NCBI GenBank assembly: GCA_016191845.1
Contig: JACPVF010000015.1
Coordinates: 248,001 to 312,000 of the forward strand
Length of the DNA stretch: 64,000 bases
DNA from: Chloroflexota bacterium
GTDB lineage: Bacteria; Chloroflexota; Anaerolineae; Anaerolineales; Villigracilaceae
Direction: 5' to 3'
In this document: piece after piece, positions 15,044-61,305 of the stretch
Layout: each line of letters starts with the position of its first letter
Position numbering within the stretch: position 1 is the stretch's first letter
Position numbers and translations under genes: made by a program
The notes under the pieces: model-generated
Seen by the model: the letters and a program-made list of their open reading frames with translations, nothing else
The model's database searches: none
Told to the model about the DNA's origin: nothing

Positions 15044-15137
15044 GGGAGTGGTTAGGTCCCGGTGGGTCTCCTGGTCTTCAAAACCTGTGGCGGGTCGCGT
15101 TGCGGGCCGCGGTGGGTTCGACTCCCATCCACTCCCG
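15044..15137 (+). tRNA. selC: Selenocysteine tRNA (anticodon TCA)
   Basis: 94 nt with the special bacterial tRNA-Sec build. The acceptor stem has 8 bp (GGGAGTGG/CCACTCCC) with discriminator G. The T stem has 5 bp. The anticodon loop CTTCAAA carries TCA at 15078-15080. The variable arm is long, GCGGGTCGC-gtt-GCGGGCCGC, paired apart from one mismatch. One U-U mismatch occurs in the anticodon stem. It implies UGA decoding as selenocysteine, consistent with selA at 34372. No CCA is encoded. Confidence 0.95.
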
Positions 15138-15204
15138 CCTACTGCCCGAAGGTGGACGATGGTTCCAAGCCCATTGTCCACCCTGTCTGTTTATAAGGTG
15201 CTTC

Positions 15205-58674: not shown

Positions 58675-60465
58675 TTACTTTCCTAATCTGGCCCGTTCTT
58701 CCTCGGCCACGCTGGGCTCGAGTTTCTTGAAGAGCGGGGTGGGCTGGTTGAGGCTTTGCCCAGGTTTCAGGTCGCTGGGGTGCCAGTACGAGCCGTCAAC
58801 GGGTTTATAGCGCAGTACCTTGTGCTCGCCAAGCGCGTCCTTTACGACCTCGGTGTATTGCTCACCGAAGAGCGGCGTCTCATAGCCGAAGAACTCGTGC
58901 AGGCGCTGGGACGTGAAGGGCAGGAAGGGCGCGAATAGCACCTTGAGCGAGTCGATGGCCTTCAGGGCGGTGTAGACCGTCTTGGCGGCGGCGTCCTTGT
59001 CGGTTTTGACTGCCGACCATGGGGCCTGTACGTCGAGATATTGGTTGACGGCGGTGGCCAGCTTCATGGTCTCGCCCAGGGCGGAGCGCAGGCGCACGGC
59101 TTCGAGTTCCGCACCCACAGCCTGGAAACCGTTCTCGATGGTGGCCAGCAGGGCCAGGTCCGCTTCACGCAGGGTGGCGGGGTCCACATTGGGCACGTGA
59201 CCTTCCCAGTGCTTGTAGCAGAACGACAGCACACGATTGGCCAGGTTACCCCAGGTGGCAACCAGCTCGTTGTTGTTGCGCGCCACAAACTCGGCCCAAT
59301 CCCAGTCACTGTCCTTGGCTTCGGGCATATTGATGGTCAGGTAATAGCGTACGGCGTCGGGGTCGAAGCGGGTCAACACGTCGCGGCCCCACACGGCCCA
59401 ATTGCGCGAGCCGCTGATCTTCTTGCCTTCCAGGTTCATGAACTGATTGGCGGGCACGTCGTAGGGCAGGATCAGCGGGATTTCCTCGCCCGCGAAGATC
59501 TCCATGAAGGCGCTGCCCACGCCCATCAGTTCGGCGGGCCACAGCGAGGTATGGAAGAAGATATTGTCCTTGCCGATGAAGTGGAACTGCTTGGCAGCGG
59601 GATTGGTCCACCACTCGCGCCAGGCCTCCGCTTGACCTGTGACCTGGCTCCACTCAATGGGCGCGGAGAGGTAGCCGATGACGGCCTCGAACCACACGTA
59701 CAGGCACTTGCCGTCCCAGCCTGCGACGGGCACGGGGATGCCCCAGTCCAGGTCGCGGGTGATCGCGCGCGGCTTGAGCCCTTCGGCCTCGATCTTGCGC
59801 AGCGACTCGCCCAGCACGGTCTCGCGCAGGTGGTCGGAGCGGTCCTGTAGATATTTCTTGACGTCAGGCTCGAGCTTCGAGAGGTCGATGTAGAAATGCT
59901 CGGTGTCGCGCAACTCGGGTGAGGAGTTGTCGCCCTCGACCTTCGAGCGCGGGTTGACCAGCTTGGTCGGGTCGAGTACGTTGCCGCACGCGTCGCATTG
60001 ATCGGAGCGCGCACCCTCGGTGCCGCAGATGTAACAGGTCCCTTCCACGTAGCGGTCGGGCAGGAAGCGGTTCAGCCCGGGCGAAAACCATTGCGGCTCG
60101 ACCTTCGTGAAGAGGAAGCCGTTCTTCTGCAAGGCCAGGAAGATGCTCTGCGAGACCTTGAAGTGATTCTCGCTGTGCGTGGTGGTGTACAGGTCGTAGG
60201 TGATGCCGATCTTCTGGAACAGATCGATGAAGCCTTCGTGATAGATTTTGTAAACTTCCTCGACGGGCTTGCCGAGTTTGTCTGCGCTCATCGTGACGGG
60301 CGTGCCGTGCGAGTCAGTGCCTGTGATCATCAGCACCTTGTCGCCTTTTAGACGGTGATAGCGTGCGGCGATGTCACCCGGCAGGTGAGAACCCGTCAGG
60401 TTGCCCACATGGATCTCAGCGTTGGCGTAAGGCCAGGCAACAGCAATTAAGATATTTTCAGGCAT
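58675..60465 (-). CDS. metG: Methionyl-tRNA synthetase
   Basis: 596 residues, class I synthetase. The HIGH motif is HVGN in PYANAEIHVGNLTGSHL. The zinc knuckle is C144-x2-C147 and C157-x2-C160. The KMSKS position reads KISGS (349-353 in LEGKKISGSRNWAVWG), an unusual form lacking the second Lys. There is no C-terminal EMAP/tRNA-binding domain. The ATG has GGAGG 5 nt upstream. About 120 nt further upstream is a terminator preceded by a Met-rich ORF, which suggests attenuation control. Confidence 0.95.
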   Translation of the reverse strand: MPENILIAVAWPYANAEIHVGNLTGSHLPGDIAARYHRLKGDKVLMITGTDSHGTPVTMSADKLGKPVEEVYKIYHEGFIDLFQKIGITYDLYTTTHSENHFKVSQSIFLALQKNGFLFTKVEPQWFSPGLNRFLPDRYVEGTCYICGTEGARSDQCDACGNVLDPTKLVNPRSKVEGDNSSPELRDTEHFYIDLSKLEPDVKKYLQDRSDHLRETVLGESLRKIEAEGLKPRAITRDLDWGIPVPVAGWDGKCLYVWFEAVIGYLSAPIEWSQVTGQAEAWREWWTNPAAKQFHFIGKDNIFFHTSLWPAELMGVGSAFMEIFAGEEIPLILPYDVPANQFMNLEGKKISGSRNWAVWGRDVLTRFDPDAVRYYLTINMPEAKDSDWDWAEFVARNNNELVATWGNLANRVLSFCYKHWEGHVPNVDPATLREADLALLATIENGFQAVGAELEAVRLRSALGETMKLATAVNQYLDVQAPWSAVKTDKDAAAKTVYTALKAIDSLKVLFAPFLPFTSQRLHEFFGYETPLFGEQYTEVVKDALGEHKVLRYKPVDGSYWHPSDLKPGQSLNQPTPLFKKLEPSVAEEERARLGK

Positions 60466-60483
60466 TCAGGCCTCCATAAGGAT

Positions 60484-60585
60484 CATTGCGAGCGAGTCAA
60501 TCTCTTCGCAATAATTGGTTTTAATTTATTGTCTTGATAAAGTCGCTTCGAGCACATCACATTGCCCTTGCAACGACAGGGCTTT
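60484..60585. repeat. Degenerate intergenic repeat (ATTGCGAGCGAG type)
   Basis: TCATTGCGAGCGAGTCAATC with TTCGCAAT, and a second block AGTCGCTTCGAGC...ATTGCCCTTGCAACGAC, resemble the ends of a common ATTGCGAG palindrome with an AT-rich middle. It lies inside the metG leader, between the attenuator hairpin and the start codon. Confidence 0.4.
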
Positions 60586-60621
60586 ACAAACAAAAAGGCT
60601 GTCCGCATCGTGGACAGCCCG
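60586..60621 (-). promoter_or_regulatory. Attenuator hairpin in the metG leader
   Basis: On the minus strand GGCTGTCC pairs with GGACAGCC over a 7-nt loop and is followed by TTTTTGTTTGT, a good intrinsic terminator. It starts 24 nt after the stop of the Met-rich ORF and lies 120 nt before metG. Its 5' flank and arm (AAAACGGGCT) can also pair with AGCCCG plus TTTT inside that ORF (60719-60709), an alternative that would break the terminator. Confidence 0.75.
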
Positions 60622-60642
60622 TTTTGATTCAGGAATGCTGAA

Positions 60643-60729
60643 CTAACGTGCTCTCCACGTGCGGCAAGACATCTCCATTCGCATGGCCATGGTCATTGGC
60701 ACCATTGGAAAAGCGGGCTTGAAGTTCAT
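60643..60729 (-). CDS. Met-rich leader peptide of metG (28 residues)
   Basis: ATG at 60729, TAG at 60643. Residues 9-20 read MVPMTMAMRMEM: six Met in twelve, seven Met in 28 in all. The rest is MNFKPAFP before and SCRTWRAR after. There is no ribosome site. A TAAAAT -10 (60743-60738) ends 8 nt before the ATG, so the mRNA would be leaderless or nearly so. It stands between the strong terminator of the upstream gene and the attenuator hairpin. Stalling at Met codons when charged tRNA-Met is short would control metG, as leader peptides do for his, trp and ilv genes. Confidence 0.7.
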   Translation of the reverse strand: MNFKPAFPMVPMTMAMRMEMSCRTWRAR

Positions 60730-60796
60730 AGGCCGCTATTTTACTACAACCGTTTCATTTCACATAGGAATCTTATCTCGTTCCTTGGCGAATCAA

Positions 60797-60826
60797 AAAA
60801 CTGTCCCAGAAACCTGGGACAGTTTT
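60797..60826 (-). terminator. Terminator of the upstream lipoprotein gene
   Basis: AAAACTGTCCCAG and CTGGGACAGTTTT form a perfect 13-bp stem with loop AAAC (plus-strand reading), followed on the minus strand by more T. It isolates the metG leader from upstream transcription. Confidence 0.92.
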
Positions 60827-60846
60827 GGATCGTGCTTGAGCAAAGG

Positions 60847-61305
60847 CTATTGATTCAATTCGGCCTGGACCTGTTCGAAGAGCGGGCCAATGGCTGCGAA
60901 TTCGTCCAGGGCGGCCATCATGGCATCCTTGTCCTGGGATTCCAGTGCAGACTTCATGTCCGAAACGAACAGGCTGGTCTGGTCACTGATCTGCACAAGC
61001 AGGTTGTTGAGGTCGGTCCACTTTTCAGGCACCTGGTCAGTAGGCGTGGCAGCCATGGTCTGGGCAGCCGATTCCATGTGGTCAAGCGCGGCGAAAGTGG
61101 CATCCATCCAGGCCTGATCGTTGAGAGCGTCGTTATTGATACTGTCGAACTGGGTACCGACCTCGTTTATAGCGGTGTTGTAATCTTCAACAGCGGGGGC
61201 CAGATTGGTGAAGTAGGTCTCTTCAGCGCTGGGTCCGCAACCAGTGACGGCCAGAGTCAGCGTGAGGACAAACATGAATAGGGCGAAGCGTTTCAATGTG
61301 GACAC
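60847..61305 (-). CDS. Small helical lipoprotein of unknown function
   Basis: 152 residues. The signal STLKRFALFMFVLTLTLAVTGCG ends in a lipobox VTGC (sequence quoted in two parts: STLKRFALFMF, VLTLTLAVTGCG). The mature part is acidic and almost all helical (LAPAVEDYNTAINEVGTQFD, AALDEFAAIGPLFEQVQAEL). GTG 61305 is preferred because AGGAG lies 7 nt upstream. The longer frame to 61356 covers that site. Single gene with own promoter and terminator. No family recognised. Confidence 0.78.
   Translation of the reverse strand: MSTLKRFALFMFVLTLTLAVTGCGPSAEETYFTNLAPAVEDYNTAINEVGTQFDSINNDALNDQAWMDATFAALDHMESAAQTMAATPTDQVPEKWTDLNNLLVQISDQTSLFVSDMKSALESQDKDAMMAALDEFAAIGPLFEQVQAELNQ

Follow-up and report, generated by a model that had tools for sequence, protein, structure and literature searches.

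The methionyl-tRNA synthetase gene metG of this member of the Chloroflexota is preceded by a short, methionine-rich ORF and an intrinsic terminator, which together very probably form a ribosome-mediated transcription attenuator that senses charged tRNA-Met, the response to charging being an inference. The parts of this leader, their conservation, a covarying pairing between the 3′-terminal codons of the ORF (region 2) and the 5′ arm and loop of the terminator (region 3), and the spacing between Met run and region 2 were established by computation. The transcription start, the translation of the ORF and the response to tRNA charging are inferred, without transcriptome, translation or reporter data. 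Attenuation is the best-supported reading because the ORF and the terminator are conserved, the antiterminator covaries with the terminator and the spacing of the Met run fits. The initial annotation, which had proposed attenuation by charged tRNA-Met, was thus supported, albeit with another antiterminator than the one it had named.

All parts are located on the minus strand of the window, i.e. the whole stretch of 64,000 nucleotides that was analysed (Table 1). Re-reading of the sequence confirmed the coordinates assigned initially to leader, terminator and metG, including the 28-codon ORF and its seven ATG codons, of which six lie within residues 9-20, and the 8-bp stem and T-run of the terminator. 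A strong terminator further upstream had also been claimed, and a stem of 13 bp is indeed present; it was read from the sequence and is absent from the output of the terminator pattern scan. This terminator closes the upstream gene and isolates the metG unit. Elsewhere in the window, a selenocysteine tRNA gene was detected at 15044-15139 (+) by ARAGORN and Rfam.

Table 1. Features of the metG leader and its surroundings, in window coordinates.
Feature	Position	Strand	Remark
Terminator of the upstream gene, AAAACTGTCCCAG-GTTT-CTGGGACAGTTTT	60797..60826	(-)	13-bp stem, then T; read from sequence
-10 box TAAAAT, presumed leader promoter	60738..60743	(-)	ends 8 nt before leader ATG
Leader ORF, 28 codons, MNFKPAFPMVPMTMAMRMEMSCRTWRAR*	60643..60729	(-)	seven ATG codons; without Shine-Dalgarno; probably leaderless
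Met run, ATG codons 9, 12, 14, 16, 18, 20	60670..60705	(-)	proposed stall sites
Region 2, antiterminator 5′ arm, CCGCACGTGGAGAGCACGTT	60645..60664	(-)	last codons of the ORF and stop
Small apical hairpin TTCAG-CATTC-CTGAA, apex of the antiterminator	60628..60642	(-)	between stop codon and terminator
Region 3, AACGGGCTGTCCACGATGCGG	60603..60623	(-)	common to antiterminator and terminator
Intrinsic terminator, regions 3:4, GGCTGTCC-ACGATGC-GGACAGCC-TTTTTG	60591..60619	(-)	8-bp stem and T-run
Shine-Dalgarno GGAGG of metG	60471..60475	(-)	
metG, methionine--tRNA ligase, 596 aa	58675..60465	(-)	NCBIfam TIGR00398

A comparison of metG upstream regions from related genomes had been suggested as a check, and it turned out in favour of the proposal, as the Met codons are kept and the antiterminator covaries with the terminator. 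A metG match was obtained in 97 of 100 genomes of the family, and 90 upstream regions were used. For the remainder of the order and class, 58 regions were taken and 51 parsed (7 were lost as the start motif was missing), one more region of less than 250 nt being excluded from the Met-enrichment test only (n = 50), and from other classes of the phylum 32 regions were taken and 21 parsed. The relatives found by the metG search were mostly Anaerolineales, Anaerolineae or Chloroflexi MAGs (among the 80 loci kept). At least four internal Met codons within 14 codons were present in 57 of the 90 family regions, compared to 1/90 on the reverse strand and 4/1800 dinucleotide shuffles. With at least three, the counts were 78/90 forward, 5/90 reverse and 84/1800 shuffles in the family, and 14/50, 1/50 and 35/1000, respectively, in the class outside the family. 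By script, an ORF with at least two internal Met codons in 14 codons and a terminator 15-33 nt past its stop were found before metG in 73/90 family regions, covering 23 of the 26 sampled genera, and 70 of these 73 leaders carry at least three internal Met codons. Nine further leaders with terminators were recognized by eye; among the remaining script-negative family regions, one (G082) contains a probable leader, one (G094) stayed undecided, and inspection by eye revealed no Met leader in six family members. A strict composite test, combining Met run, spacing, complementarity and terminator with thresholds set after viewing the family, was passed by 50/90 family regions (reverse strand 0; shuffles 0/450) and by 5/51 regions of the class outside the family (reverse 0; shuffles 0/255), and by none of the 21 parsed regions from other classes of the phylum (reverse 0, shuffles 0). 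The Met-rich leader ORF before metG is therefore real and not a product of chance. Within its own genome, the pattern ATGNNNATGNNNATGNNNATG gave 11 matches in 10 places, compared to one match for the reversed pattern. The nine places other than metG each overlap a stop-to-stop open frame of at least 267 codons on either strand, and the metG leader itself overlaps a 217-codon frame of the other strand; judged by such overlapping frames, without gene calls, there is no convincing second Met-run leader in this genome.

Several peculiarities were seen while reading the individual leaders. One of the six family regions without a Met leader (L093, from G003) retains promoter and terminator, and its leader MDSCSCAWTRNSRPPM lacks a Met run and contains two Cys codons, as judged by eye. 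Six leaders (from G002, G017, G030, G053, G067 and G073) share an in-frame insert of approximately TLAPGASAGVT, which is GC-rich and palindrome-like and is located between the start of the ORF and the Met run, giving the impression that a small repeat was added while the device stayed intact. In another class, three short ORFs before metG (L268, L270 and L272) have no Met run and end in a recurrent W.GLRLTARG(F/Y)MA peptide.

The position of the presumed promoter suggests how the leader is expressed. In 67 of the 73 script-found family leaders, 6 or 7 nt separate the end of the -10 box from the leader ATG, and a TTGACA-like -35 box was detected in 55/73, with a 17-nt spacer in 44 of those; only 35/1355 of the other ATGs in the same regions are accompanied by such a -10 box at a distance of 3-9 nt. 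A Shine-Dalgarno-like motif was found at none of the 73 leader starts, compared to 66 of the 73 metG starts. As the leader start was taken where TAnnnT lay 2-9 nt upstream, if such a motif existed, the -10 result is partly due to selection by this loose rule, which did not impose the peak at 6-7 nt; for three leaders (G059, G073 and G079) the rule took an earlier ATG than the choice by eye. From the proximity of the -10 box and the missing Shine-Dalgarno motif, transcription probably starts on the leader AUG or directly beside it, which would make the ORF leaderless, in the absence of a mapped start site. For 4 of 12 Chloroflexi genomes, leaderless genes are given as 4.7% in the part available of an in silico survey (PMC3160421). 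Inspection by eye distinguished three types of leader promoter, TTGACA-17-TAAAAT, CTTGCMA combined with CATAGTAAACT, and CTTGTAGTAAAAT accompanied by a poor -35 box, perhaps reflecting different sigma factors.

Known RNA devices were searched for at the same position. No T-box (RF00230) was found at metG in the window at the gathering threshold, nor at E ≤ 0.01 in 60 metG upstream loci (20 from the family and 40 from the class, a subset of the loci fetched). Comparison of window positions 60400-60860 with Rfam led to three matches, none with E under 3.5 and each falling well short of the cut-off, and one batch of scanned metG loci gave a single tRNA gene as sole Rfam match. A T-box, a SAM riboswitch or any other Rfam element at metG was rejected, as none was found in the window or the scanned loci. 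T-boxes, regarded initially as the usual RNA device for metG, do occur in the genome of the window: eight T-box matches with E of 3.4e-10 or less precede pheS, trpE, thrS, a trpB-like gene, valS, ileS, ilvE and serS, named by their best NCBIfam match, with some genes cut by the end of the fetched stretch. Only the match at pheS exceeds the Rfam cut-off of 93 bits, the other seven scoring 51.8-90.1 bits. In the class, a T-box over this cut-off was present in 127/150 genomes. The accessible part of an earlier study lists T-boxes at the Ile synthetase, trpE and a trpB-like gene in two Dehalococcoides genomes (PMC2494555).

Region 2 is complementary to the 5′ arm and loop of the terminator, and the minimum-energy fold of the window RNA (83 nt from the last Met codon on) is the region 2:3 hairpin and not the terminator (z -4.7), whereas the RNA past the stop codon, folded alone, gives the terminator. 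The sequences of region 2 and region 3 differ by lineage, with TGGARAGC/GCTGTCCA, YGGRCAG/CTGTCCR and GCCAG/CTGGC, and with TGGCGGTC/GACCGCCA (G107) and TGGCGCGGCT/GGCCGCGCCG (G260) in other families. When each region 2 was paired with its own and with foreign regions 3, the mean duplex energy was -15.65 kcal/mol for cognate and -12.91 kcal/mol for non-cognate pairs (n = 86; z -10.7; equalled by 0/20000 permutations). Restriction to one genome per genus (n = 36; 23 family genera and 13 outgroup genomes) gave z of -7.8 to -8.2 in three draws, and the preference was seen within the family alone (n = 23; z -4.7 to -5.4) as well as within the outgroups alone (n = 13; z -4.6 to -4.7). This sampling controls the relatedness of the genomes only partly, and the 13 outgroup leaders were required to have just two internal Met codons and a terminator, so that some may not be real leaders. 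Five decoy segments at n = 36 all remained at |z| of 1.0 or less, namely the 5′ half of the leader (-0.0), the promoter side (-0.6), the sequence after the terminator (-1.0), the metG start (0.2) and the reverse complement of region 2 (-0.1). The gap between stop codon and terminator pairs below chance (z +3.3; n = 36), and a reversed region 2 also prefers its cognate (z -3.4; n = 36), indicating that composition accounts for part of the signal. Among the 51 leaders that contain the CTGTCC motif (13 of 64 lacking it were omitted), the base after CTGTCC and its partner in region 2 are T-A in 31, C-G in 12 and other in 8, i.e. 43 Watson-Crick pairs seen vs 27.4 expected. Taken one by one, just 18/86 leaders perform better than their codon shuffles at p < 0.05. 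A consensus fold of 37 leaders of the window type by RNAalifold led to the region 2:3 hairpin (-23.1) with an unfavourable covariation term (+12.6); the terminator could not compete in this consensus, as the sequences had been cut before region 4. An antiterminator that uses the last codons of the ORF is thus conserved and covaries with the terminator.

For the antiterminator put forward initially, between codons 4-7 and AAAACGGGCT, the result was different. This pairing does exist in the window, where with -12.2 kcal/mol it ranks 2/73, but it is not conserved: its AGCCCG occurs in the leader of the window only, and it was rejected from the lack of a cognate preference across the 73 family leaders (z -0.0; one per genus, n = 23: z 0.1, -1.0 and -0.5). 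In one leader type, represented by five leaders (from G019, G026, G046, G074 and G085), the arrangement CAGTTC...GCCAGA TGAACTG around the stop codon is strongly conserved; as judged by eye, a 6-7 bp hairpin, possibly a pause hairpin, spans the stop there and holds region 2 in its loop.

The distance between the Met run and region 2 was determined by an ungapped complementarity search. Region 2 starts 11-14 nt past the end of the nearest upstream Met codon in 40/86 leaders, compared to a mean of 8.0 and a maximum of 18 in 200 codon shuffles with Met positions fixed; the range was picked after the distribution was known. With one leader per genus, 12 to 15 of 36 fall into it vs 3.4-3.5 in shuffles. 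In 72/86 leaders, no more than 16 nt separate the end of region 2 from the stop codon. With the footprint size of a ribosome taken from general knowledge, the Met run is located about one ribosome half-width upstream of the 5′ arm of the antiterminator, so that region 2 would be more or less free when a ribosome waits with its A site on the last AUG, and covered when the ribosome has reached the stop codon. A Met-rich stretch that is conserved might also be explained by a nascent-chain arrest peptide, which would stall in the exit tunnel on a ligand such as methionine or SAM, and as AUG has no synonym, codon and residue cannot be separated from the sequence. Unlike arrest peptides with their defined residues, though, the runs vary, on reading the leaders, in length, spacing and neighbours (PMVPMTMAMRMEM, MMM, MSMPM, MPMAM); this variation, and a stall-to-region-2 spacing consistent with an A site on an AUG at the close of the run, make such a peptide extremely unlikely.

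Attenuation by a stalled ribosome was also followed by a fold scan over ribosome positions, with the footprint kept unpaired and folding at equilibrium. For the window, a ribosome with its A site on one of the six internal Met codons led in every case to a terminator probability of 0.07 or less and a ribosome at codon 21 to the stop to 0.98-1.00, with the oddity of 0.73 for a ribosome at codon 19. Without a ribosome the window RNA favours the antiterminator (terminator 0.03). This, together with the close -10 box and the missing Shine-Dalgarno motif, would suit a sensor acting at initiation, in which initiator fMet-tRNA or free 70S ribosomes would be sensed by the 5′-terminal AUG, the Met run playing a secondary part. 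We regard this as highly improbable, as it leaves the Met run and its spacing to region 2 unexplained, and as the terminator probability without ribosome is below 0.5 in only 4/73 family leaders, that of the window included. Switching as such, defined as a terminator probability of less than 0.3 with the ribosome at one or more Met codons but more than 0.5 with it at the stop, was observed for just 14/73 family leaders, among them the window; in most, the terminator wins regardless of the ribosome. A general equilibrium switch across relatives, which had been expected, was hence not upheld beyond the window and these genomes, and in most relatives the attenuation model needs co-transcriptional kinetics. 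The order of transcription, with region 2:3 formed before region 4, could rescue the model there; this was not simulated.

The dominance of the terminator is also what would be expected if the ORF were simply a small-protein gene with its own terminator, followed by a separate metG promoter and without any regulation by methionine. The distance from terminator to metG start, with a median of 93 nt in the family, would offer room for such a promoter in many genomes. In 22/73 family leaders, however, this distance is 60 nt or less, which leaves little room for another promoter, so that metG there is probably read through the terminator. Moreover, the 3′ codons of the ORF covary with the terminator, and the peptide outside the Met codons, from reading the leaders, changes freely between genera, making a small-protein gene very unlikely. 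By reading only and without statistics, no peptide motif common to the leader types was seen except the region-2 codons.

For the attenuator, the following course of events can be proposed. Transcription would start on the leader ATG or no more than about two nucleotides from it, and a ribosome would translate the Met-rich ORF behind the RNA polymerase. With ample Met-tRNA it would reach the stop codon and cover region 2, allowing region 3 to pair with region 4, so that the terminator would form and metG would remain untranscribed. When charged elongator tRNA-Met is short, the ribosome would wait with AUG in its A site; region 2, beginning about at its leading edge, would stay free and could pair with region 3, and the polymerase would read through into metG. 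The attenuator would thereby probably raise MetRS when charged Met tRNA runs short. A dual sensor that departs from the his/trp scheme, in which translation of the ORF would require initiator fMet-tRNA at the leaderless +1 AUG and the internal AUG run senses elongator Met-tRNA, is possible but rather unlikely; in the version of the window, with the read-through favoured by its ribosome-free RNA, it would mean that loss of either charged tRNA raises MetRS.

Attenuation by leader peptides is textbook knowledge for amino acids including His, Trp, Leu, Ile/Val, Thr and Phe, of which PMC1262725 names several. The classical attenuators (his, trp, leu, ilv and pheST) share with the metG leader a short ORF rich in the cognate codon, an intrinsic terminator, an antiterminator that overlaps the 3′ end of the ORF and a downstream gene for the same amino acid; the metG leader differs in its amino acid methionine, in its gene metG and in its phylum Chloroflexota. 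Leaderless short ORFs of mycobacteria rich in cysteine reportedly attenuate the genes behind them, according to the title of a 2020 article by Canestrari et al. As far as that title tells, these polycysteine ORFs resemble the metG leader, itself only probably leaderless, in being leaderless, short and rich in one amino acid; they concern Cys and, as a citing paper has it in the part available, act by translation attenuation of cysteine genes, whereas the metG leader concerns Met and has an intrinsic terminator.

The closest published cases come from Streptomyces lividans TK24, for which the accessible part of PMC8079986 describes leaderless leader peptides with the pairs leuL2/leuS, trpL2/trpS, thrL/thrS and metL/metNIQ. 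Like the metG leader, which is probably leaderless, these include leaderless short ORFs before synthetase genes, with leuL2 followed by a hairpin and a U-stretch (PMC8079986). The proposed Met leader metL has 29 aa and is described as containing several methionines; it precedes a methionine importer and has, from what is available of the paper, two internal Met in its 29 residues and no typical terminator (PMC8079986). In contrast, the metG leader possesses Met runs, a terminator and a covarying antiterminator and belongs to another phylum, and no metG leader appears among the S. lividans leader peptides in the available part (PMC8079986). Attenuators before trpS and leuS were described in Streptomyces, with pheST mentioned as well, and no conserved RNA structure was reported before the methionine operons of Actinobacteria, as far as the accessible text goes (PMC1262725). 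According to the part available of a 2010 article, leader peptides were known by then from Proteobacteria and Actinobacteria only, besides the atypical ermC leader, and hisS paralogs of Firmicutes were added there to leader-peptide attenuators (PMC2965389). Among T-boxes, one for Met that is specific for initiator tRNA at metICFE of Staphylococcus aureus and a Met T-box at metS of Bacillus cereus are given in the accessible part of PMC3771891. T-boxes sense tRNA charging and control synthetase genes by antitermination, as is proposed for the metG leader, but a T-box binds the tRNA directly, whereas the sensor proposed for the metG leader is the translating ribosome. In print, as far as the sources were accessible, control by methionine comprises riboswitches, T-boxes and metL as one proposed leader without a clear terminator.

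The initial annotation knew of no Met leader peptide for metG, and none was found in the open-access literature searched, among the best matches and in the parts available, metL being proposed for metNIQ; a description elsewhere is not excluded. The accessible part of PMC12123629 holds nothing on a metG leader, and no description of leader-peptide attenuation in Chloroflexota was found in the literature searched. As leaderless leader peptides and metL were already known from Streptomyces, the novelty resides in the amino acid sensed, the gene controlled, the phylum and the strength of the comparative evidence. In all likelihood, the metG leader represents the classical attenuator in a version for methionine, with a leader ORF that is leaderless, conserved in one family.

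If this is true, a classic mechanism gains a new specificity and a new phylum, and metG would have diverged in its control from pheS, thrS, valS, ileS and serS, which have T-box matches in this genome. Region 2 has been rebuilt from differing sequences while its distance to the last Met codon stayed similar, which would represent a record of ribosome geometry in the sequence alone. Methionine is an awkward case for attenuation, since Met starvation also removes initiation, and the metG leader may serve as a natural system for how cells tell a shortage of initiator from one of elongator Met-tRNA. Should the dual sensor hold, the sensed amino acid would be the very one that starts every protein.
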